Shown piece after piece: positions 5,884 to 48,606 of a DNA stretch of 64,000 nucleotides. The notes beneath the pieces were generated by a model that did no database searches, was not told where the DNA came from, and worked only from the letters and a program-made list of their open reading frames with translations. The position numbers were made by a program, and so were the translations under genes. Within the stretch, counting starts at the first letter, position 1. Each line of letters starts with the position of its first letter. This DNA comes from Roseovarius sp. Pro17 (GTDB lineage Bacteria > Pseudomonadota > Alphaproteobacteria > Rhodobacterales > Rhodobacteraceae), in the NCBI RefSeq assembly GCF_035599575.1, contig NZ_CP141179.1, positions 1,984,001 to 2,048,000 on the forward strand, in the 5' to 3' direction.

Positions 5884-6764
5884 GCTTCATCATCCTTCTT
5901 GGTCTCGTCCAGAGTCTCGCTCTGGTCGCCGGCCTCTGCCTTGTCAGCTGCGATTTCGGCCTCGGCCTCTTTCTCTGCTTCGGCTTCCTGTGCGGCTTGC
6001 GCCTCGGCGGCTGCCTTGGCTGCTTCGGCCTCTTCGGCTGCTGCTGCTGCGGCTGCCTCATCGGCGGCTTTGGCGGCGGCTTCTGCCTCGGATTTCAGCG
6101 CGGCGGGCAGAATGGCATGCTCGGGGAACGGCTTCTTGACCGCATCCTTGATCGTCACCCAACCACCCTTGGAACCGGGAACAGCACCCTTGACCATGAT
6201 CAGGCCACGGTCGGCGTCTGTCTTGATCACCTGCAGGTTCTGCGTGGTGATGCGTGCAGCACCCATGTGACCGGCCATCTTCTTGCCTTTAAAGACCTTG
6301 CCCGGATCCTGACACTGGCCCGTGGAGCCGTGCGAACGGTGCGAAATCGAAACACCGTGGGTCATTTCCAGACCCTTGAAGTTGTGACGCTTCATGGCAC
6401 CCTGGAAACCCTTACCGATCGAGGTGCCGCAGACGTCTACGAACTGACCCTCAAAGTAATGGTTAGCAGTGATTTCCTCACCGACGGCGATCAGGTTCTC
6501 AGGCGCGACACGGAATTCCGCGATCTTGCGCTTGGGTTCCACCTTGGCTGCGGCGAAGTGGCCGCGCATGGCTTGCGACGTCCGCTTGACCTTGGCGGTG
6601 CCAGCGCCTAGCTGAACCGCGGAATAGCCGTGGCTGTCGGCCGTGCGCTGCGCGACGACCTGAAGTTTGTCCAGTTGAAGAACGGTGACAGGAACCTGCC
6701 GTCCGTCTTCCATGAAAAGACGGGTCATGCCCATCTTCTTTGCGATAACGCCAGAGCGCAACAT
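5880..6764 (-). CDS. rplC: 50S ribosomal protein L3 with a long acidic C-terminal tail
   Basis: A 294-residue L3; most bacterial L3 are about 205-220. Residues 1 to about 215 are the normal protein, including [18 protein letters not shown], in which Gln150 matches the glutamine methylated by PrmB in E. coli. The remaining 80 residues are almost only Ala, Glu, Lys and Asp, predicted to be helical or disordered and strongly acidic. To my knowledge such tails occur in Rhodobacterales L3. L3 starts 50S assembly and reaches the peptidyl transferase centre. It sits 14 nt after rpsJ. Confidence 0.96.
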
Positions 6765-34696: not shown

Positions 34697-37600
34697 ATGA
34701 CTTGCGTGTCTCGACTTTTAATTCAGGTTGTGGATTACGAAGGCAGCCCGCTTCAGGAGGCAAAGGTGAGCCTCAAGCCCGGGTCAGGGCGGGGAAAATC
34801 CATTCACTCCAATTATTTCCAAGCGGCGGGCGGCTACGTTTTCGAGGGGCTCGCCCCGGGACGCTACCACATTGAGGTCGCCTCACGTGGGCTTGAGTCG
34901 CAGACCCGCGACGTGGAAGTGACAAAAGAGGAGGAGCGCGCGCAATTCCATCTCGGCAAGAAGGGGATGCTGTACTATTTCCGCGGCCAAGTGCGCATCC
35001 CGGTCGATCCGCCCGAGGGCCTCGTCGCGGCGAGCGTGCGGCCGGACATTGACGACAAGGGCGAAGAGGCACTCTATAAGCTCGCTGCGGAACTCGGGCT
35101 CACGGTCGTGGAGATCGGCGCGGCTATCCGCGGCGAGTTCGTCCGCGTCTTCCAAGCACCGAAAGCGCTTCTGAGCGAACAAGGGCCAGAGATCCTCGCC
35201 CGGCTTTCGGCCCATGAACTCGTGCGCCGGGCGGGATTTGTCCTCAGACTGACAGAAGAAAGCGTTACTTTCCTTACCGACGAGATATCTGTCCAGTTTG
35301 CCGAGGAGAGCGCGAAAAAGACAACCGAAGCCAACGCAAAGGACGATGGATACGAGGTCCTCCGCTGGCTGCCTTATTCGCCACGCACGGCAGTCCTCCG
35401 CGTCGTGGGTGTGGCTGATTTCGGAGTTCTTGAGACCTGCGAGCGCTTCCTGACCCGCGACGACGTGGTTTTCGCCGAGCCCAACCTCGTAACCACTGTC
35501 GTTCCAGATGTCACACCGGATGATTTCCTGTTCGCCAACCAGCCGAACCACGGGATTATTCAGACGGAAGAAGCTTGGGATGTAACGCTCGGCGCCGAGG
35601 ACATCATCATCGCGGTGGTCGATACTGGCTGCGATGTGGATCACCCTGATTTCGTCACGCCGGATTTCACCAAAATCTACCAGCCGTTCGACTTCACCGG
35701 CGTCGACACAGACGTCTTCAACAATGGTAGCAGCCACGGCACGCAGAGTTGCGGCATCGCCTCGGCTGTCGCGGACAATGCTGAGGGCGTTGCAGGTGTC
35801 GCGCCGGGCTGTCAGCTTATGCCAATCCGCTGGCCCTCGGGTGGGACGGATACCGATTTCGCCGACATGTATGTCTGGATCGCCGGTCTTGATCCGGCGA
35901 GCGTGACGCCGGGTTTTCCGGCTGTCATCAGCCCCGGCGCCGATGTCATCAGCAACAGCTTCGGTCTTGGCGAAGCCGCAATCTCGGGAACGATGTCAAA
36001 CGCCCTGGACGCGATCACCGATGATGGCCGAGGCGGTCTTGGCTGCGTGGTGGTTTTCTCGGTGGGCAACAACAACGTGGATTTCACCGTTGGAAACGGG
36101 CGACGCTGGGCGGAATACGACCGCACGATAGCCGTCGCCTCCTCGCGCAACAGCCCACCCGACGCTGCTGAAGTCAAGGTCAGCACCAGCAGTTTCGGCC
36201 CTGCGGTTGACGTCTGCGCGCCGGGCGGTGGGCCTGGCGGCGGGACAGAAACTCGGGTGATGAGCACGGTGAACGTGGGTACCGGCAACACCGCCGGTTC
36301 CGGGACCGCAGCCAGCAACGATTACCGGACTTTCGGTCAGACGTCCTGCGCCTGTCCGCAGGTTTCAGGCGTCGCCGCGCTGGTCCTGTCGGTTCGCCCG
36401 GACCTGGCATGGGACGAAGTGCGTGACATCATCCGTGAAACTGCCGACCGGATTGATGTCGACAACGTCGATCCCGTGGGCCAGTGGGTCGACAACGACG
36501 GGGACAGCTTCCCTGAATTCAGCCAATGGTATGGTTTCGGCCGCATCAATGCCGCGGCGGCGGTGCTCGAAGCGAGGCGGTCGCTACCGATCATCGCCGT
36601 AAACCTCGAACAGGGAATGGAATTCGGCCTTGTGTGCGACGGACCGGCGCATCTGACCCTGCAAGTTTTCAATGTGGGCCTGGACGATCTTGTCATCTAC
36701 GACGTTTCAATCCTCGGTGGTGGCACGGTCTTCGAGGTCGATCCCCTTCCGGATACACCGCTGGTCATTGATCCGGGCAGCGAGGTGGATTTCACCGTGC
36801 GCTACACGCCTTCGGCGCAAGGTGCATCGGACAGTGCCGTCCTGCGAATAGAGAGTAACGATCCGATAACACCGGAGCTTGACCTTGACGTATCGGGTGA
36901 GGGCGGCATCGCGACCGCAGCGCTTGCCGTCGCGGATTCAGGTGATTTCGGCACGGTCTGTGACGGCGAATTCGTCGACCGGGATCTGCTCGTCAATAAT
37001 TCCGGCACGTGCCCGCTGATCGTGACGGCGATCACGTCGACCGACCCAGCATTCGTCGTACCCATGGTCATCGATTTCCCGCTGGTGATTGCTGCGGGCG
37101 ACACAATGAACCTGCCTCTTCGGTTCCAGCCGATAGCGCCCGGCTTGGCCGCGTCCACGATCCGCGTTGTCAGCAACGATCCCGACAGCCCGGTAGAGAT
37201 CGAAATTTTCGGCACGCGCGGAGAGCCACGGCTCGTCCTTTCCTTTGCCAATGACGGTGATTTCGGGGCGACATGCGTAGAAGATATCACTGACAAGCCG
37301 CTGCTGCTTTCGAACAGCGGTGATTGCGATCTGCGGATCGACAGCATCGTCTCTTCGGATGCGGAGTTTGTTGTACCGGCAGTCATTGCCTTTCCGATGG
37401 TCATCGGTGCTGGTGCCTCGGCCAGCGTATCGCTGCGATTCCAGCCCGCTTCCTTCGGCGCGAAATCAGCAACGATCACGATCACCTCGAACGATCCGGC
37501 GAGCCCTGCTGTGCTCGATGTGAGCGGTACCGCGCCAAGCGGCAAGCTGACGCTCACTGGCACGACGCAATTCTGCGAGGTTGAGCTTGGGGACTGCGCG

Positions 37601-38038
37601 CGCGAAACTCTTTCGATCTGTAACACGGGAGACTGCGATCTTCACGTCAAGCGTGTCGCGTTCAAAGAGCCGGATCCCTGCGCGGCCTTCATGTATGGCA
37701 ATTGCGATTGCGGCGGCGGCTGTTCTTGCGGCTGCGACGAACCCGAAAAACCGAAGAAGCGACCCGTTTGCGATCAGAAATGTCTGGATTTCAAAATCCT
37801 CGGAAATCCGTTCCCGGCGGTCGTGAAACCCGGGTCCTGCCTTGGTGTGACGATCCAGTACCGGCCCAATTGCGACGGTGCCTCGTGCTGCCAGTTGGTG
37901 ATTAAAAGTGATGATCCGGACATACCGAAGAAGACCGTATTCGTGACCGGCCGGATCAAGCGCACGCTTTATTCGGCACTCAAATGCTGGGCCGGGCAGG
38001 AACTCGCTGATGCATTGAGCGGCAAGCATAAGTGTTGA
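34697..38038 (+). CDS. Large subtilisin-like (S8) serine protease with Ig-like repeats and Cys-rich tail
   Basis: A 1113-residue protein. Residues 1-95 look like a carboxypeptidase-regulatory/Cna-B sandwich; about 230-275 resemble an I9-type propeptide. The S8 domain has the catalytic triad Asp309 (VVDTGCDVDHPDF), His347 (SSHGTQSCGIA) and Ser550 (QTSCACPQVSGVAAL), where the usual GTSMAxPH box is altered to TSCACPQ. From about 640 there are three to four repeats of an ASH/choice-of-anchor-D-like domain, each with NSGxC, LRFQP and SNDPxSP. Near residue 1000 is a Cys/Gly-rich stretch (CDCGGGCSCGCD). No classical signal peptide is seen, so export may be unusual. Confidence 0.8.
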   Translation: MTCVSRLLIQVVDYEGSPLQEAKVSLKPGSGRGKSIHSNYFQAAGGYVFEGLAPGRYHIEVASRGLESQTRDVEVTKEEERAQFHLGKKGMLYYFRGQVRIPVDPPEGLVAASVRPDIDDKGEEALYKLAAELGLTVVEIGAAIRGEFVRVFQAPKALLSEQGPEILARLSAHELVRRAGFVLRLTEESVTFLTDEISVQFAEESAKKTTEANAKDDGYEVLRWLPYSPRTAVLRVVGVADFGVLETCERFLTRDDVVFAEPNLVTTVVPDVTPDDFLFANQPNHGIIQTEEAWDVTLGAEDIIIAVVDTGCDVDHPDFVTPDFTKIYQPFDFTGVDTDVFNNGSSHGTQSCGIASAVADNAEGVAGVAPGCQLMPIRWPSGGTDTDFADMYVWIAGLDPASVTPGFPAVISPGADVISNSFGLGEAAISGTMSNALDAITDDGRGGLGCVVVFSVGNNNVDFTVGNGRRWAEYDRTIAVASSRNSPPDAAEVKVSTSSFGPAVDVCAPGGGPGGGTETRVMSTVNVGTGNTAGSGTAASNDYRTFGQTSCACPQVSGVAALVLSVRPDLAWDEVRDIIRETADRIDVDNVDPVGQWVDNDGDSFPEFSQWYGFGRINAAAAVLEARRSLPIIAVNLEQGMEFGLVCDGPAHLTLQVFNVGLDDLVIYDVSILGGGTVFEVDPLPDTPLVIDPGSEVDFTVRYTPSAQGASDSAVLRIESNDPITPELDLDVSGEGGIATAALAVADSGDFGTVCDGEFVDRDLLVNNSGTCPLIVTAITSTDPAFVVPMVIDFPLVIAAGDTMNLPLRFQPIAPGLAASTIRVVSNDPDSPVEIEIFGTRGEPRLVLSFANDGDFGATCVEDITDKPLLLSNSGDCDLRIDSIVSSDAEFVVPAVIAFPMVIGAGASASVSLRFQPASFGAKSATITITSNDPASPAVLDVSGTAPSGKLTLTGTTQFCEVELGDCARETLSICNTGDCDLHVKRVAFKEPDPCAAFMYGNCDCGGGCSCGCDEPEKPKKRPVCDQKCLDFKILGNPFPAVVKPGSCLGVTIQYRPNCDGASCCQLVIKSDDPDIPKKTVFVTGRIKRTLYSALKCWAGQELADALSGKHKC

Positions 38039-40620: not shown

Positions 40621-41313
40621 ATGCGCTTTGCACTCTCAAATGAACAACGGATCGAGGCAACCCCCGGTGCCATGGGCATCTGTCCAGGCTGCAGTGCCGA
40701 AATGTTGGCCCGTTGCGGAACCAAGAAGGTTTGGCATTGGGCGCACAAAGGCAGACGCCATTGCGACCATTGGTGGGAAAACGAGACTGAATGGCACCGT
40801 GTTTGGAAAAATCGGTTTCAGAGCGACTGGCAAGAGGTGCCAGCTCGTGATGAGGCTGGCGAACTGCATATTGCCGACATTAAGACACCCTATGGCCTTG
40901 TGATTGAGTTCCAGCACTCTGCTATCAAGCCGGACGAAGTAGTAAAGCGCACAAATTTCTATGGCCAAGTGATCTGGATCGTTGATGGAAACCGCCGTCC
41001 GACTGATCGGACTCAATATGAACGGATGCTTTCAGAAAATTACCCGCAGCGATTCGATGGTGTGGATATCTACACTGTCTATCATGAAGAAACTCGGCTT
41101 CTCAAAGAGTGGGGGTCACTGGGCAGGATTGTTGGTTTTGACTTTGGAGGTGAAAGTCTGTGCTTCCTCACAGCCGCACAAGGCATGAGCCGGTATCTAT
41201 TTGACTTTCCCAAGGCGGAATTTGCTGAGCTGATCGCCGAAGGAAAGCCATTGCCGGTGGTCCAATTCGGAAAGCCTGCCCCTCGTGGCTATCGTCGCCG
41301 TAGAAGAAGTTAA
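40621..41313 (+). CDS. CoiA-like nuclease-domain protein
   Basis: A 230-residue protein like the competence protein CoiA family. It has an N-terminal zinc pair CPGC (21-24), HWAH (39-42) and ETEWHRVWK (54-62). The restriction-endonuclease-like core is Asp86 (HIADIKTP) and Glu96-x-Gln98 (VIEFQHS). Predicted role: DNA or RNA cleavage; relatives occur in competence and in accessory or defence loci. No competence genes are beside it. It stands alone in a low-GC stretch, at the left edge of the island-like region. The tail is Arg-rich (RGYRRRRRS). Confidence 0.75.
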   Translation: MRFALSNEQRIEATPGAMGICPGCSAEMLARCGTKKVWHWAHKGRRHCDHWWENETEWHRVWKNRFQSDWQEVPARDEAGELHIADIKTPYGLVIEFQHSAIKPDEVVKRTNFYGQVIWIVDGNRRPTDRTQYERMLSENYPQRFDGVDIYTVYHEETRLLKEWGSLGRIVGFDFGGESLCFLTAAQGMSRYLFDFPKAEFAELIAEGKPLPVVQFGKPAPRGYRRRRRS

Positions 41314-41378
41314 GAATCTCCCTGCCTAAAACGCTCGCTTTTGGAACATGCTGCCTGTAACGCTGACAAAACAGTTTG

Positions 41379-41555
41379 TCAGTAGGCGTCCCATGGAATG
41401 ACACATTCTGTGGGTTTTCCCGGTCCATCAATCGCTCGCACATATCCTCCCAGTTGGTGACAATCTGAATGTTTCCATAAACCAAGCGGAAATATTGATC
41501 CGAACACCCAGCCCAAAATAACGGCAATCACAATCACGAAATTTTTTTTCAGCAT
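41379..41555 (-). CDS. Small putative membrane protein
   Basis: A 58-residue open frame: MLKKNFVIVIAVILGWVFGS gives one hydrophobic helix, then a short domain with two Cys (DCHQLGGYV and TECVIPW), similar in layout to small exported Cys-paired proteins. The frame is open 18 codons further upstream. No family recognised. It converges on the CoiA-like gene. Weak support. The following 320 bases hold no gene. Confidence 0.35.
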   Translation of the reverse strand: MLKKNFVIVIAVILGWVFGSIFPLGLWKHSDCHQLGGYVRAIDGPGKPTECVIPWDAY

Positions 41556-41878
41556 AGAAGACAGGGTTTCACTTTCTCGGGGCGTCTGCAACGGGTTCGA
41601 ACTTGCCATTCAAAACATTCGCAAAACTCACCAAAAACGCTCGTTTTTGGCACATGCGCAAACCACCCAGATTGACGCTGCCACAAACCCCGTTCAAAAC
41701 CCATCCCGTTGCTGAAGGTTTTTGCCTCTCTCGTGATAGCAGACATTAGCTGCATAGCAGAAATTCGGAAAAGAGGGCTCGAAGCGGACCTCGGATGCGG
41801 CGCAGCATCTCATGATAGAGTGCCTCGTCAACGTCGGGTTGTCGATGTGGGAGGGCTTGGTGGATTGGAGGAGCTGTC

Positions 41879-42025
41879 ATGCCAACACCAAACTTACCGG
41901 CCATCCGGGCGCTTCGCCCCGCTTGGAATAAGGGTCGGATCGTTGGTCAGAAACGACCGTTGATGCCAAAGCACGTCTGGGCAATTCGCGTGCGTCTCGA
42001 ACTCGCGGAGAACCATCGCGACCTT
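41879..42025 (+). pseudogene. N-terminal fragment of a site-specific integrase
   Basis: The first 49 codons, behind a GGAGGAG ribosome-binding site, read MPTPNLPAIRALRPAWNKGR and continue VGQKRPLMPKHVWAIRVRLE, the start of a tyrosine-recombinase type widespread in Proteobacteria. After AENHRDL the match stops near 42025, the frame changes into unrelated sequence, and the catalytic domain is missing. The breakpoint is just before the Abi_C gene, so this looks like an integration or deletion scar. Confidence 0.7.
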
Positions 42026-42080
42026 GTCCGCCGCGCGTGTGGAACGGGGTGCTACCATCGCGTAGAACGTGTTCAGTCTG

Positions 42081-42914
42081 ATGATTCAAGGTGTCTGCCC
42101 CGTGTTCAAGAAGCCATACGAACAGCTCATTCCTCGCCTCGAACGGGACGCCATAGAGAAGGCTCTCGAGATGGAGAGCGGCTACGTCCTTGATTTCAGC
42201 GACAGGACCTTCGACGATTTTTTCTTCGAGACAGTTAACATCGACGCATCCGCGCAGTCACACCTTTTCAGTGGTCGCGGCACTTCAAAAGCGAAGCGCC
42301 TCCGTTCGTTCATAGAGAATGCACAGCCGTACCTCGTGGTGAAAGTTCTCCGAGAACTCTGGGAGCACCGGGAAGCACGTGTCGCGGGCTATACATCCGA
42401 CGTTCCTGACATCAACGAAAAGACGCAGGGGCTTTATTTCTCGGCCATAGCCGGCTTTGAGGGGCGGGCTGACCAGATCGACACGACGGCGATTGAGGCC
42501 TTTGGACCAAATGAAACTCTCGAGGAACTGGTCGCGTCCATTCGCCGGGATCTCGACGCGAAGAAGCCCCACGCCGCCATCGACCGCCTGCACACATATT
42601 GCATGAAGAGGTTCGCTGCCCTCATCCGGAAACACGGCGGTCCCGACTGCGGCAAGGATGACCCGCTTCATTCCCGTGCCGGAAAATACGTCAAGATTTT
42701 GCAGCAGACACACAACCTGACGCCTGTCTCCGACCGCATCGTGAAGACGCACATCGCGGTTTTTCAGGAGATGAACCCCATCCAGAATGACCAGTCCTTC
42801 GCACACGACAACGAGACGCTCGTGACGATGGACGAGGCGCGGTTCATTTTCGACAGCGTGACCGCGTTCCTGCGGTTCTCGAAAGCGATTGACGGACGCC
42901 TGTTCGAAGACTGA
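42081..42914 (+). CDS. Abortive-infection family protein (Abi_C-like)
   Basis: A 277-residue protein. The N-terminal part (LERDAIEKALEMESGYVLDF then SDRTFDDFF) and the C-terminal part (AIDRLHTYCMKRFAALIRKH, ending QNDQSFAHDNETLVTMDEAR) fit the Abi_C (PF14355) proteins linked to abortive infection. The NDxSFAHDN motif near the end is the best-conserved part of that family. It is expected to act on infected cells, mechanism unknown. Of several possible starts, the ATG at 42081 is used; a GTG at 42069 is also open. It follows directly after the truncated integrase. Confidence 0.65.
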   Translation: MIQGVCPVFKKPYEQLIPRLERDAIEKALEMESGYVLDFSDRTFDDFFFETVNIDASAQSHLFSGRGTSKAKRLRSFIENAQPYLVVKVLRELWEHREARVAGYTSDVPDINEKTQGLYFSAIAGFEGRADQIDTTAIEAFGPNETLEELVASIRRDLDAKKPHAAIDRLHTYCMKRFAALIRKHGGPDCGKDDPLHSRAGKYVKILQQTHNLTPVSDRIVKTHIAVFQEMNPIQNDQSFAHDNETLVTMDEARFIFDSVTAFLRFSKAIDGRLFED

Positions 42915-43196
42915 CACGAAAGCCGGGGCGATCACGCCGAACCCCTGCTCATCCTGCGCAATAGCCCCCTGAACAGCGGATTTCAGGGTGGTAGCAGATG
43001 GGCATTTTCAGCGTATTCGAACGAAAGAAGGCGGCGCTTTTCAGCGGGACGAGCGCTTTGGGGTCGTTCTGTCGCCTCTCGCACGGCCGCGCGGGCGGAC
43101 CCGTCACAGGCTCGCTGTCTAATGAAGCCGTTGCGTGTGATGCCGAAAAGCGCGCCGAGTCGGCGTGACACCATGCCCTTTGGGTCAATCTCGTTC

Positions 43197-43451
43197 AGAT
43201 GCACTTCCTCGCAAAGCCGCCGCTCGGACCGAATGCCCAGGCAGTAGCCCACCAGCAGCATGCGGATCAGCAGCTCGGGATCGATCGAATGGCGGCCGGT
43301 GTTGCTGTAGCAACGGGGCCAGATGCTGACGGATGTCTGACAGGTCTACGAAGCGGTCAATGGAGCGCAGCAGGTGATCCTGCGGGACGTGATCCTCAAT
43401 CGAGAACTCGTAAAACAACGCGCCTTGCGCCTCTTGCTTCGGTCCCAACAT
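43197..43451 (-). pseudogene. IS1182-family transposase remnant
   Basis: The start QGALFYEFSIEDHVPQDHLL plus RSIDRFVDLSDIRQHLAP is typical of IS1182 transposases. A frameshift follows, and MLLVGYCLGIRSERRLCEEV continues in another frame. The match ends at EEVHLN near 43197; the catalytic part is missing. The segment 42915-43196 downstream holds only unrecognised open frames. Confidence 0.7.
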
Positions 43452-43848
43452 CGCAGATCCCCCCGCATCATCGGGGATAATTAAATCAGCGCCAGCGCCC
43501 CAAATCATCAAGAGTTTTTCAACAGAATACGCCCTATGTGACCATCGCAACTTCCGGCCCTTTGCGGACCTTCAACCACAACTAAAGATGCCGCACTGTG
43601 GCGCTTCAAACCCGACATTCGCTGCGAGTGCTCAATGTGCGCAGTCATAGGAGGCCCCTGTGCGGGATTTGCCCGCCGTTCCTAAGGAGTGTCCAAATGA
43701 GTAACCTGGATAGACAGCACTTATCGCACAGGCAGGTATTGCGGATATTATAGAACTCAAGAACAACTAAAATGTCCCCAGAATCCCACGTCTTTGCGCT
43801 GCCCACATCGACCATTTCTTCAAGCAACACTTTTGCAAGGAGAGCGCA
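43452..43848. other. Upstream region of the viperin operon
   Basis: About 400 bases without a recognised gene except an 18-codon open frame at 43697. A GAGTTTTTCAACAGAATA sequence near 43508 marks the old IS end. The viperin promoter must lie here, but I find no convincing -35/-10 pair by eye. Confidence 0.4.
43697..43753 (+). CDS. Possible 18-residue leader peptide upstream of viperin
   Basis: MSNLDRQHLSHRQVLRIL, ended by TAG, preceded by TAAGGAGTG with good spacing to the ATG. It lies about 95 nt before the viperin start. The ribosome-binding site is as good as any in the region, but so short a frame can arise by chance. A leader peptide or the truncated start of a lost gene are both possible. 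Confidence 0.25.
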   Translation: MSNLDRQHLSHRQVLRIL

Positions 43849-44736
43849 GTGGAACTTCAACCTCAACTCGTCGCGAATTGGCATGTTACAGAAGCCTGCA
43901 ATTATCGTTGCAAGTTTTGCTACGCGCATTGGTCCAAACCAAAGGCTTCGGAACTTTGGCGCAATAATGCCTCGTGTAAATTTCTGATATCGGAGCTGGG
44001 CCGATTTCTGTCACCTGACAACCCGCTTTGGGAACAACGTTTTGTCCGTCGGCCGCGACTTAACATTGCCGGAGGTGAGCCAACGCTTTGGGCCGGTGAG
44101 CTCAGTCACGTGGTGGATCACGCCGTTGCAGCCGGATTTGACGTGAGTTTGATAACCAATGGCAGCCGTCCCGAGACGCTGCGTAATATTGCATCAAGAA
44201 TTTCAATGCTCGGTCTCAGTGTGGATTCCACTCGTTGCGACGGGAATTTGCGGATCGGACGGGTGGATAGAAAGGGCGCGCAAATCGGCTCGGACGATCT
44301 TATCGACTTGGTCCGCGAATTGCGCACCGCCAACCCTACACTGCAGATCAAGCTGAACACGGTCGTGAATGCGGTTAATGCCGAAGAGGATTTCTCGGCA
44401 CTCATTTCCCATATCGCGCCAGACCGTTGGAAGGCCCTACGAATGCTACCGTCCTACAATGACGAACTGACCGTGGATGAAGCGAAATTCGAAAGGTTTG
44501 TCAGCCGCCACGCCGCTTTCCGGCGCATCCTTTCCGTCGAGGATAACCCCTCGATGGTCCAGTCCTATCTTATGATCGATCCGCATGGCCGCTTCTTCCA
44601 GAACAAGCTGGACAGTAAAGGATATTACTACAGCGAACCCATCCTCGACATCGGGGTCGAGCGCGCGTTCGCGCAAATCCCATTCTCCATCGACAGGTTT
44701 CTTGCGCGATACCAGCCTCTGGAGAGCACGTCATGA
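43849..44736 (+). CDS. Prokaryotic viperin (radical SAM antiviral nucleotide dehydratase)
   Basis: A 295-residue radical SAM protein. The cluster-binding CxxxCxxC is Cys17, Cys21, Cys24 (TEACNYRCKFCYAHW); a GGEPT SAM-binding motif is at 75-79. The viperin-specific features are the asparagine-rich start (VANWHVTEACNYRC), SLITNGS (100-106), LSVDS (123-127), KLNTVVN (168-174) and SYLMIDPHGRFFQN (239-252). Known prokaryotic viperins convert a nucleoside triphosphate to its 3'-deoxy-3',4'-didehydro form, which stops viral RNA polymerases. Length matches the family. The start is GTG, set by AAGGAG six nt upstream. It overlaps the next gene by 4 nt. The usual nucleotide kinase neighbour is absent, so the base used is unknown. 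Confidence 0.87.
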   Translation: MELQPQLVANWHVTEACNYRCKFCYAHWSKPKASELWRNNASCKFLISELGRFLSPDNPLWEQRFVRRPRLNIAGGEPTLWAGELSHVVDHAVAAGFDVSLITNGSRPETLRNIASRISMLGLSVDSTRCDGNLRIGRVDRKGAQIGSDDLIDLVRELRTANPTLQIKLNTVVNAVNAEEDFSALISHIAPDRWKALRMLPSYNDELTVDEAKFERFVSRHAAFRRILSVEDNPSMVQSYLMIDPHGRFFQNKLDSKGYYYSEPILDIGVERAFAQIPFSIDRFLARYQPLESTS

Positions 44737-44951
44737 AATACTCAACCTGCAAAGAGATCGAGAAAGAGGTGCAATCGCGCGTACGAGAGGGCTGGCAGTA
44801 TTTCCGAAAACGCAAACATGGGAGGCTGGTGTCACCGACCGGTGGCTTTGTAACCGTGCCATGCACCCCCAGCGATTGCCGGGCTCTTCGCAACTTCCGG
44901 CGCGATGTGGAGCGGGTGTTGAATGGGCAGACAAAACGTCACGCAGGCTGA
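44733..44951 (+). CDS. HicA-like small protein coupled to viperin
   Basis: A 72-residue basic protein whose ATG overlaps the viperin stop (ATGA), so it is translated with viperin. Its order, EGWQYFRKRKHGRLVSPTGG, then FVTVPCTPSD and FRRDVERVL, resembles the double-stranded-RNA-binding-like fold of HicA toxins, with His29 at the position of the HicA active histidine. No HicB-like antitoxin follows. It may be an RNA-binding or RNase partner of the viperin system, or an unrelated small basic protein. Its last 13 nt overlap the convergent gene at 44939. Confidence 0.55.
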   Translation: MKYSTCKEIEKEVQSRVREGWQYFRKRKHGRLVSPTGGFVTVPCTPSDCRALRNFRRDVERVLNGQTKRHAG

Positions 44952-45970
44952 CTTGCCTGGCTCCAGCCCTCCTCCACCTCGGCCGCGGCGAGCAGAAAAG
45001 GCTTCCGCGCCTTGGTGACATTCTGCTTTTGCAGATACGTGTAGGAGCGCGCGACAAAGGCACAATAGCAAAGCCCCAAATCGAGCCAGTCGTGGAGGTC
45101 GGAGTTGGCTTTGCAGGCGTTCGAGGTTTCGCTGACGCGCTTAAGATCAGTTCGCAGCCTGTCCAATGGTGGCACGTCTCTTCCACTTGCAACCTTTGAC
45201 CATTCGATGCGTGCGCTTTCAGGATCCAAATGCGGAGAGAGCGCAGCGTAGAAGTTGGTCTTCGTTTTGTAGCCAAGTTCGCGTTGGGCCGTGTCCAGCC
45301 ATCTTGCTAACGCCAGACGCGGCCCTCTGCGGATGGCATCCCCACACGCAAGTTTCCGGAGCGACAGAACGCTCTCGGTCCTGTCTGGCCCGGTTTCGAT
45401 TAGTAAATTAAAGACAAAGACACTCGCCATGAAAATATGTATCGGCGCCATGATAACCCGCAAATCGGCGCGGTTGGTTGTTTCAAGCGTGCTGGCACAG
45501 TCGTGGAAAAGCGGAGCAACGCGGGATTTCGGCATCCGGCGTAGTTCAGAAGCGAGCGCTTGCGTCCCACCCAAGGTCAAGACCTCCTGCAAGTGATCCG
45601 AGGCAAGGACTGCGCGCTGAACGGCCTCAAGCGTATGCGCGCCTCTTTTGCGCAGACCGGGTTCCGCGATGGACCAGGCACCAAGCGGGATCACTTCGGG
45701 AGGCACATCTTGCGGGGATAGAAAAGACGGCCGGTGTTTAGCTTCAAGATGTCTGATGAACTTTGCAACCGCGGCTTTGGTAGTGTTGCCAGTCTTACGC
45801 GCTCTCGTCCAGAACCTGTGCTGAGCTTCGTTGCCACCAACGCCCCCAACACGCGGCCCGAGCATGAAGTTCTTCAAAGACACCCCAACGATGTCACAGT
45901 AGTCTTCCGGGTCGAGCAAAATTCTTGCAAGCCGCATATCGTCATTGGAGGGAATCTGGGCTTTAGTCAT
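44939..45970 (-). CDS. Unknown protein convergent with the viperin operon
   Basis: A 343-residue protein of no recognised family. It begins MTKAQIPSNDDMRLARILLD. The sequence is mostly helical and basic, with blocks such as DCASTLETTNRADLRVIMAP, a hydrophobic stretch IHIFMASVFVFNLLIET (middle) and LGLCYCAFVARSYTYLQKQN near the end. An upstream ATG at 46012 adds 14 residues. Its 3' end overlaps that of the HicA-like gene by 13 nt. GC is lower than in the core. Its position makes a role in the same island likely, but this is inference only. Confidence 0.6.
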   Translation of the reverse strand: MTKAQIPSNDDMRLARILLDPEDYCDIVGVSLKNFMLGPRVGGVGGNEAQHRFWTRARKTGNTTKAAVAKFIRHLEAKHRPSFLSPQDVPPEVIPLGAWSIAEPGLRKRGAHTLEAVQRAVLASDHLQEVLTLGGTQALASELRRMPKSRVAPLFHDCASTLETTNRADLRVIMAPIHIFMASVFVFNLLIETGPDRTESVLSLRKLACGDAIRRGPRLALARWLDTAQRELGYKTKTNFYAALSPHLDPESARIEWSKVASGRDVPPLDRLRTDLKRVSETSNACKANSDLHDWLDLGLCYCAFVARSYTYLQKQNVTKARKPFLLAAAEVEEGWSQASQPA

Positions 45971-46217
45971 CTGTTGTCTGCGTTGCCTCGGGCTTTTATC
46001 GTTTATCACCATAGGCAAATTACCTACATGCCAAATGTTGGATCTTCGTAAGCGTTCGCCGTCGGAGCTGCGGTCTTGGCACAGGCCTGAAACATCGTCA
46101 TGGGCGATTACACGAACGGCCCAAAAACTGACATTCATTAGGACGAACTTGCTGCAGTGCAGCTTCCCAAAAGCGGCCGTGGCATGAAGCGTAGCAATCA
46201 TGCGACGCCAATGTGAT

Positions 46218-46394
46218 TTAACTCGGCTTCGCGGGGCTCTCCTTTTCCCGATAGCAAGCAGAGCGTTGTCCATCCATATCAAAATATCGGAGTTCTAAGA
46301 TCGGTACCTCATGCACAACCTGCCGCCAACTGTGACATCCATACTTAGCAGGCAATTGCTCAGGGTACCGCTCGGCAATCCATTTGCCAGCGTC
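46218..46394 (-). pseudogene. 3' part of a LOTUS-domain gene, cut off by an IS
   Basis: Codons for the last 58 residues of a protein whose first part lies at 47914-48606. The segment WIAERYPEQLPAKYGCHSWR and then LELRYFDMDGQRSACYREK fits the second half of an OST-HTH/LOTUS domain, which binds RNA. Joining the two parts at the shared 9-bp sequence gives one continuous frame of 289 codons. A spurious start inside the IS (46466 or 46478) leaves an 82-86 residue frame, but this is probably a by-product. Confidence 0.7.
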
Positions 46395-46402
46395 ATCAAC
46401 AG
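46394..46402. repeat. Target-site duplication, left copy
   Basis: CATCAACAG directly before the left IS end; the same nine bases follow the right IS end at 47913-47921. Confidence 0.8.
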
Positions 46403-46487
46403 TGTCTGACGTCAGCGCCTGTGGGACAGATTTGAGGAATTGAACAACGGAGGATTTCTGGTTCATCGTAACCTTCATGGAGTGAAG

Positions 46488-46862
46488 ATGAACAAGAAAT
46501 CCGGAACGTCTAAGGACGCAGCTGACAAGCTGGTCAAGAACATCCGCCGCAAGACCCGTCAGACCTATTCGGCTGAGGAGAAGATCCGCATCGTCTTGGC
46601 GGGTCTGCGAGGCGAAGAGAGCATTTCGGTGCTCTGTCGCCGTGAAGGCATCGCCGAAAGCCTATATTACAGCTGGTCGAAGGAATTCCTTGAGGCTGGC
46701 AAGCGGCGATTGTCCGGCGACACGGCCCGGCAGGCAACGTCGCCAGAAGTCAAAGATCTGCGCTCGGAGTCACTTGCCCTGAAGGAATGCGTGGCAGACC
46801 TGACCCTTGAGAACCGTCTGCTCAAAAAAAGCATGACAGGGGCTGGGGAGGCAGAGAAATGA
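46488..46862 (+). CDS. IS transposase OrfA
   Basis: A 124-residue DNA-binding protein: a helix-turn-helix (TYSAEEKIRIVLAGLRGEES, then CRREGIAESLYYSWSKEFLE) and a C-terminal leucine-rich coiled coil (LTLENRLLKK). This is the IS3-type OrfA layout. The ATG at 46488 has GGAG in front; an open frame starts earlier at 46440. Its end overlaps OrfB by 4 nt. Confidence 0.85.
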   Translation: MNKKSGTSKDAADKLVKNIRRKTRQTYSAEEKIRIVLAGLRGEESISVLCRREGIAESLYYSWSKEFLEAGKRRLSGDTARQATSPEVKDLRSESLALKECVADLTLENRLLKKSMTGAGEAEK

Positions 46863-47839
46863 GGTATCCCGCGTCCGAGAAGCTGGAAATCATCCGAACG
46901 GTTGAAGGCTCACATCTACCGGCCAGGCAGACCCTCGACATGCTGGGCATCCCGCGCGCGACCTTCTACCGTTGGTATGATCGTTATGTCGACGGCGGCC
47001 TTGATGCCCTGGCGGACCACGCACCCCGTCCAGGTTCTGTCTGGAACCGTATTCCACAGGATCGGCGCGATGATTTGATCGAGTTCGCGCTGGAATTTGA
47101 GGCCCTGACGACACGGGAGCTGGCGGTGAAATACACCGACGAGAAGCGGTATTTTATATCTGAATCATCAGCATATCGTATTCTGAAGGAAGCTGACCTG
47201 ATCACGGCGCCCGCGCATGTGGTGATCAAGGCGGCCGACGAGTTTAAAGACAAAACCACGGCAATCAACCAGATGTGGCAGACCGATTTCACCTACTTCA
47301 AGATCATCGGGTGGGGCTGGTATTACCTCAGCACGATCCTGGACGATTACAGCCGCTACATCATTGCGTGGAAGCTCTGCAGCACCATGCGTGCTGCCGA
47401 TGTGACCGACACTATCGAGTTGGCTCTGGCGGAATCGGGTTGCGACCAGGCGGTCGTGCGCCACAAGCCGCGGCTGCTCAGCGACAACGGCTCATGCTAT
47501 ATCTCTGGCGATCTGGCCGATTGGCTGGAGGATCACAAAATGACGCACGTCCGCGGGGCGCCATTCCACCCACAGACACAAGGCAAGATCGAACGCTGGC
47601 ACCAAACTATGAAGAACCGGGTTCTGCTGGAGAATTACTACCTGCCCGGCGATCTCGAGCAGCAGATCGGGGCCTTCGTCGAATATTACAATAACCAACG
47701 ATACCACGAGAGTCTGAACAACGTCACACCCGCCGACGTCTACTTCGGCCGCGATAAAGCCATTCTCAGGGAAAGGGAGAAGATCAAGAAACAGACAATC
47801 CGACAGCGCCGCTTGCAACACCAGAAACAAGCCGCATAA
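46859..47839 (+). CDS. IS transposase OrfB (DDE integrase)
   Basis: A 326-residue integrase. A helix-turn-helix is at the start (LGIPRATFYRWYDRYVDGGL). The rve core has the catalytic triad Asp (MWQTDFTYF), Asp (LLSDNGSCY) and Glu (GKIERWHQT), with 35 residues between the second Asp and the Glu, the classic D35E. No stop or frameshift. It overlaps OrfA by 4 nt (ATGA), so both proteins are made together. Confidence 0.9.
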   Translation: MRYPASEKLEIIRTVEGSHLPARQTLDMLGIPRATFYRWYDRYVDGGLDALADHAPRPGSVWNRIPQDRRDDLIEFALEFEALTTRELAVKYTDEKRYFISESSAYRILKEADLITAPAHVVIKAADEFKDKTTAINQMWQTDFTYFKIIGWGWYYLSTILDDYSRYIIAWKLCSTMRAADVTDTIELALAESGCDQAVVRHKPRLLSDNGSCYISGDLADWLEDHKMTHVRGAPFHPQTQGKIERWHQTMKNRVLLENYYLPGDLEQQIGAFVEYYNNQRYHESLNNVTPADVYFGRDKAILREREKIKKQTIRQRRLQHQKQAA

Positions 47840-47912
47840 TCAATCACACGAACGAGCCAGAGCCTCCAATGCTCAAGCCGCTCTGATGTCCCATTTTATT
47901 TGACGACGGACA

Positions 47913-47921
47913 CATCAACAG
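47913..47921. repeat. Target-site duplication, right copy
   Basis: CATCAACAG directly after the right IS end, identical to 46394-46402. Confidence 0.8.
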
Positions 47922-48606
47922 GTGCCCACCTATCGACAGCCAACGCACCGAATGCTTCTCGTAAGGCGCTCACTATGCCCGAGGCACACCAATCTACTGT
48001 GCCATCGGGAGCAATTCCGTTGACAACCAAGTCTTTGAACATCTCCGACTGACAGACCTCTGAGAGCGCCCGCCGCGTTTTCTCCATGTCGTCAGCCCAT
48101 TCCCGAAGTTGTCCGAGGTGTTGTTCGATGCGGCTGTATGCGGTGACCAAGGTTTCTTGCGCGCCACGGCATCCATCCGAGCTCCCGAGGTCGTGCTGGT
48201 CGATGAAGTGGTGAACCAGGTTGTTCCGCAGCAGTACCAATTCTCTGAGTTCATTCTCTGCCCGGACGAAATCTGCGCCCGACAGGCCAAGTGTCATCTC
48301 CATGGTGAACCAATTGACGTTCTCAGGAGAGTTGGCCGTCGCCTCTTCGGGAGGATTCATCTCATCGACAACAACATACGATCCAAGGAGATCGCTAACC
48401 AAGATGCCGAGCGTCTTACGCGCCGTGCCGTCAATCTGCGCGGCCCGGGCCCTCTCCAAGTCATGAATTGGCCCTGAGAGCCTATGATGCGCTAACATGG
48501 CCTTGATCAGCCGCTCATACTGTTGCAACCGCAACAGGCATCGACCCAACAATCGCTGAACTTCATGCTGAAGCGTCTGCAGGTCTTCGTCATTTAACGT
48601 CGCCAT
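47914..48606 (-). pseudogene. 5' part of the IS-disrupted LOTUS-domain gene
   Basis: The first 231 codons of the interrupted gene, starting MATLNDEDLQTLQHEVQRLL. The protein is helical: a coiled N-terminus, the segment ENELRELVLLRNNLVHHFID with an RNxxxH pattern seen in HEPN-like helices, and MFKDLVVNGIAPDGTVDWCA, which starts the LOTUS winged helix. After DRWAPVD the IS begins; read-through into the IS adds five foreign residues and a stop at 47896. An RNA-binding or RNA-cutting defence-type protein is possible. Confidence 0.7.

Follow-up and report, generated by a model that had tools for sequence, protein, structure and literature searches.

A viperin gene overlapping a HicA-like gene within a conserved three-gene block in Roseovarius sp. 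Pro17

Results

Viperin and its HicA-like partner

A stretch of 64,000 nucleotides (nt) from Roseovarius sp. Pro17 (NZ_CP141179.1, positions 1,984,001–2,048,000; referred to as the window, to which all coordinates are relative) harbours a gene for a prokaryotic viperin (pVip) that overlaps the gene of a small HicA-like protein, and a third gene of 343 amino acids (aa) converges on the pair. The features of the locus are as follows.

43849..44736, + strand: prokaryotic viperin, 295 aa, GTG start; matched by NF038283, the PADLOC pVip models and solved chains
43837..43842, + strand: AAGGAG, the probable ribosome-binding site for viperin, 6 nt ahead of the GTG
43897..43920, + strand: codons for CNYRCKFC, the cluster motif of radical SAM enzymes (C17, C21, C24), from a 13-viperin alignment
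44733..44951, + strand: HicA-like protein, 72 aa, ATG start; ATGA shared with the viperin stop, giving a 4-nt overlap
44817..44819, + strand: codon for His29, which aligns with the histidine of HicA
44868..44876, + strand: codons of the P-S-D motif, a mark of this HicA-like subfamily in alignments
44939..45970, − strand: convergent third gene, 343 aa; start set from comparison with homologues
44939..44951, unstranded: 13-nt tail-to-tail overlap of the HicA-like and 343-aa genes, from open reading frame (ORF) coordinates
43663..46122, unstranded: three-gene cassette, a block of DNA homology from blastn against loci with differing flanks

The ORF coordinates agree with the 4-nt overlap reported in an initial annotation of this DNA, which had also taken the larger protein for a true viperin rather than a MoaA-like enzyme. 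The latter assignment held: the protein scored 316.2 bits against NF038283 (‘viperin family antiviral radical SAM protein'; cut-off 180), far above other radical SAM models (39.7 bits for NrdG2, 33.1 and 30.8 bits for MoaA), and thus does not fall in the MoaA or another radical SAM branch. TIGR04278, a second and separate viperin model, gave 80.3 bits, under its cut-off of 450. Both pVip models of PADLOC matched, at 300 bits for the model not associated with a kinase (PDLC02903) and 279 bits for the kinase-associated one. Among solved chains the best match was 9dfu_A (E value 5.9e-25), with viperins in the next rows, and the nearest chains were radical SAM proteins and viperins. Furthermore, C17, C21, C24 and 23 further columns are invariant across 13 aligned viperins, and the viperin motifs quoted in the initial annotation (LSVDS and KLNTVVN among them) are present in the sequence.

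The 72-aa protein is basic, as had been noted, with 17 lysine or arginine residues versus 7 aspartate or glutamate residues. It matched the PADLOC model ‘HicA-like' (PDLC02910) with 83 bits (E value 2.5e-24; the library prints no cut-off); further matches, to PHROG families without an assigned function, were weak. NCBIfam and Pfam searches with this protein returned nothing up to an E value of 1, PF07927 (HicA_toxin) included, and PF07927 had no match in its own genome at an E value of 0.001. The protein nevertheless has the topology of the HicA fold, which is of double-stranded RNA (dsRNA)-binding type. His29 is invariant in 22 of 22 rows of one HicA-like alignment and in 19 of 19 rows of another (L038, the fused or long L040–L042 and L045 being left out of these alignments; L numbers denote individual loci), and it aligns with a histidine invariant in 10 canonical HicA sequences (hhalign probability 94.1 and 92.5%). 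This histidine is catalytic in HicA. P46 and S47 are invariant and D48 nearly invariant in the HicA-like alignments, and the resulting P-S-D motif is absent from the canonical HicA alignment of 10 sequences. The description of the small protein as HicA-like is therefore supported by both topology and profile comparison, and by analogy it may cut RNA or arrest growth.

Alternatively, the HicA-like protein could be an RNA-binding accessory that does not cut: it might direct viperin, or what viperin makes, to transcripts, or it might tune viperin on sensing phage RNA that is double-stranded or chain-terminated. The small size, basic character and dsRNA-binding-type topology are consistent with such a role, as are the gene overlap, which suggests fixed proportions of the two proteins, and the P-S-D motif, which sets the protein apart from canonical HicA. 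However, the HicA histidine is invariant, for which a pure binder has no obvious need, and an accessory of this kind appears unlikely.

Recurrence of the pair

A total of 29 viperin loci were compared, comprising the window, three of four near relatives, 12 of 14 plasmid viperin records (H3 and H5 left out), 6 of at least 54 loci on viral contigs and 7 genomes over the viperin cut-off from overlapping sets of 394, 398 and 385. Among the viral-contig loci, 48 were judged non-viperin by the A1 profile (one of them, L104, being a short fragment with 103 bits), and the distant viral rows L065–L068 were counted as viperins on that profile alone (242–268 bits).

The gene pair, whose conservation in other genomes the initial annotation had proposed to check, recurred: the HicA-like gene directly follows viperin in 9 of the 29 loci (window, L002, L003, L004, L047, L063, L064, L117 and L122), the first five of which are near-identical relatives. 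For the other 20, no HicA-like gene was detected in the sequence at hand (252 nt downstream only for L123). The paired viperins of L063 and L064 are, respectively, 59 and 44% identical to that of the window, and paired loci occur in genomes related only at the level of phylum (G462, L117) and class (G1080, L122). The 4-nt overlap is found also in L002, L003, L004, L047, L063 and L120. The overlap is 1 nt for L064 and 14 nt for L117, and in L122 the two genes are 4 nt apart (gene starts of L063, L064 and L117 were picked by eye). Genome G462 has a further viperin, L120, on the contig of L117; it is broken, lies about 11 kb away from the intact pair and is accompanied by a HicA-like gene of its own.

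On a viperin tree without L120 (a degraded second copy), L124 (below cut-off), L005 (a 33-residue remnant) and the 48 viral-contig loci judged non-viperin, the HicA-like label requires four changes, compared with a mean of 7.8 for shuffled labels, and none of 200 bootstrap trees requires just one. The strongly supported branches by themselves force one change, so that a single origin of the pairing can still be accommodated. At the L005 remnant (6001–6099; Roseovarius sp. 217), the match is restricted to the region ahead of the viperin gene and 33 N-terminal viperin residues, and neither the HicA-like nor the 343-aa gene was detected at that locus.

Of 394 genomes from the host's family, 12 were matched by PDLC02910 at an E value of 1e-3; 5 of these matches were under 1e-10 and 7 weak (1e-5 to 2.4e-4). 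Yet a HicA-like gene directly follows viperin, with an overlap or a gap of at most 4 nt, at 9 of 29 loci, and the pairing is more than chance. The converse fails, with a viperin over the cut-off in 1 of the 12 family-sample genomes with a HicA-like match and in 1 of 8 plasmid records.

A third gene and a shared DNA block

The 343-aa gene adjoins viperin and the HicA-like gene in the window, L002, L003, L004, L047 and L063; its 13-nt overlap with the HicA-like gene is likewise present in L002, L003, L004 and L047 and is replaced by a 41-nt gap in L063. The ‘two-gene operon' of the initial annotation is therefore incomplete, since the convergent gene belongs to the conserved block. Neither Pfam nor PADLOC gave a match for the L002 homologue of the 343-aa protein, nor did Pfam for that of L063. 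The protein is predicted to be all-helical, in a weak model (pLDDT 64.7); P0145, P0146 and P0150 (fragments or chimera) and P0134 (the window's own protein with a longer start) were left out of the fold alignment. Its family comprises 21 listed homologues, own protein included (7,999 candidates scored), and is confined to the viperin/HicA-like pair as far as tested, by an indirect check in which the homologues were compared with 12 of the 120 rows for viperin and the full 10 for HicA-like. The 343-aa gene was not found in the sequenced surroundings of L064, L117, L120 and L122, each with a HicA-like gene after viperin. Because the pair occurs elsewhere without it, regulation or sensing limited to this branch would be favoured over a general antitoxin role.

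The same observations bear on whether the locus is a toxin-antitoxin unit of a new type, with the HicA-like protein as toxin and the 343-aa protein or viperin as an antitoxin that is released on infection. In line with such a unit, Pfam scans found no HicB domain in 16 window ORFs from 40621 to 48606 (a subset of those present) or in the third-gene homologues of L002 and L063. The confinement of the 343-aa family to the pair, as far as tested, and the tail-to-tail overlap of its gene with the HicA-like gene fit as well. Yet four loci pair a HicA-like gene with viperin where no 343-aa gene was found, the model of the 343-aa protein is all-helical (though of low confidence), and a convergent layout is unusual for toxin-antitoxin pairs. 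This arrangement is thus considered improbable.

By blastn, the block shared with the window spans 43663–46122 in L002 (93.6%), 43663–46123 in L004 (89.2%) and 43663–46111 in the Sulfitobacter plasmid L047 (89.2%), and its edges lie 186 nt ahead of the viperin start and about 150 nt ahead of the start of the 343-aa gene. The match to L003 is longer (43686–46395; 90.3%), as L003 shares a LOTUS-domain gene too. The flanks of L004 match those of L047 at 98.8 and 99.9%, and the two hence count as one context, so the three-gene block is found in four contexts (window, L002, L003 and L004/L047). The window copy is chromosomal, and L047 is on a plasmid typed as conjugative. On the left, the homology among L002, L004 and L047 extends by about another 110 nt. 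No end repeats were found at the block. The LOTUS-domain gene is intact in L003 (8370–9239) and lies in two pieces in the window (46218–46478 and 47896–48606, − strand), separated by an insertion element with transposase ORFs (46440–47839). On the viral contigs L063 and L065, the ORFs flanking the viperin genes look similar by eye, and one of the two has the whole three-gene cassette.

All three genes are under purifying selection: over four pairs, dN/dS was 0.16–0.26 for viperin, 0.21–0.39 for the HicA-like gene (few changes, 72 codons) and 0.32–0.44 for the 343-aa gene, while the divergence of a fifth pair, with L063, was too great to yield a dS.

Such constraint on the HicA-like gene argues against its being a passenger that neighbours viperin merely since defence genes gather in islands, as do the order, strand and near-zero spacing kept beside viperins of several branches and the restriction of the DNA block to three genes in most comparisons. 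The nearby transposase gene, the Abi_C and CoiA-like genes upstream and the occurrence of HicA-like genes away from viperins point the other way; on balance, a passenger is very improbable. Viperin-free HicA-like genes are followed by genes of 298–380 aa without a Pfam domain, with which they overlap by 4 nt in L037 and L039 and from which 12 nt separate them in L043 and L046. In L040, L041 and L042 the HicA-like domain is C-terminal in ORFs of 213–484 aa, which are perhaps akin to fused HicA classes.

Elsewhere in the window, the Abi_C (abortive infection C-terminus) gene is located at 42069–42914 (+) and the CoiA-like gene at 40621–41313 (+), neither with a PADLOC match. A subtilase of 1,113 aa with HYDIN/ASH-type domains is encoded at 34697–38038 (+; PADLOC subtilase match of 46.9 bits).

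Discussion

We put at about one in two the probability that the locus forms a mobile antiphage cassette whose viperin poisons the synthesis of phage RNA and whose HicA-like protein serves as a further effector, directed at RNA. Judging from the known families, viperin would convert a nucleotide triphosphate to its 3′-deoxy-3′,4′-didehydro form and halt phage RNA synthesis, the chain-terminating nucleotides acting against the phage RNA polymerase. The HicA-like protein, probably made through translation coupled to that of viperin, could then bind and cut RNA, for example messengers that escape chain termination, and may thereby slow translation in infected cells. The 343-aa gene, reading towards the pair, would contribute the branch-specific regulator, sensor or neutraliser. 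As none of the scanned neighbouring ORFs held a HicB domain, the HicA-like protein may be harmless until infection, or restrained by viperin or the 343-aa protein; control by the latter would explain how a toxin without HicB stays safe.

A more elaborate version, in which viperin, a HicA-fold RNase and the 343-aa helical protein act together as a self-contained immune cassette, the third protein sensing infection or checking the RNase, and travel together, as a 2.46-kb unit, among chromosomes and conjugative plasmids, is tentative.

Other toxin-type partners of viperins strengthen the reading of the HicA-like protein as an effector. A 389-aa viperin (P0061; source name Moritella yayanosii) carries a C-terminal ParE_like domain (27 bits; Pfam cut-off 24.4), P0044 and P0046 end in the same domain just under that cut-off (22.9 and 24.2 bits), and in L119 a ParE_like gene (1106–1453; 36.7 bits) directly precedes viperin. 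The natural fusion in the Moritella protein points to RNA-directed partners as well. Such a fusion is not mentioned in the available passages of the viperin/hicA literature, a search aimed at it being uninformative. The available text of Gerdes 2024 (PMC10865869) asks if viperins work by themselves or together with partners directed at RNA. For that question this locus, with its overlapping genes, dN/dS well below 1 and a third gene confined to the pair as tested, is a compact natural test piece. If the more elaborate version above holds, viperin immunity would be a two-step process of phage RNA chain termination and RNA cutting.

Several known systems can be compared. With the kinase-free pVip branch (PDLC02903) the viperin shares a higher score than with the kinase-associated model, and no P-loop kinase pattern was found in the window by our own pattern scan; it differs in having a HicA-like partner. 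The kinase pattern occurs in 6 of 20 viperin loci without a HicA-like gene versus 0 of 9 with one, among rows that are related and flanks that are uneven. PADLOC-DB 2.0.0 numbers the HicA-like model PDLC02910 beside VakA (PDLC02911), which matches the kinase preceding a Pseudoalteromonas viperin.

With canonical HicAB (represented by 6g26 and 6hpb, going by their titles, and by the HicA structures 5yrz and 1whz) the locus has in common the toxin subunit's topology and a histidine with which the second strand begins. The differences here are that no scanned ORF nearby held a HicB domain, that no GS precedes the histidine, that the protein is below Pfam detection and that a PSD motif stands ahead of the last helix.

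The closest known system is the published one. As far as its available passages go, Gerdes 2024 (mBio, PMC10865869) distinguishes 14 classes of HicA domains, with hicA upstream of pVip in Class 9 and downstream in Class 10, states that the association had been remarked on before, with reference to Bernheim 2021, and proposes a synergy of HicA, and also RelE, with viperin; three later papers take up the link again. The initial annotation had regarded a link between viperin and a HicA-like protein as undescribed, which is superseded by Class 10 as well as by the PADLOC model. A literature search over titles and abstract openings found no announced experimental test of the pair. The locus is ordinary in kind, since the pairing has been published. 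It shares with Class 10, as presented in those passages, the gene order, adjacency and true pVip by which it belongs to that class, together with the HicA-type topology, described there as helix, three strands, helix. The 343-aa gene within the conserved block is a difference, and it is not mentioned in the passages on viperin covered here. The pairing itself being known, some interest lies in the additional 343-aa gene, in the spread as a block and in how widely the link occurs.
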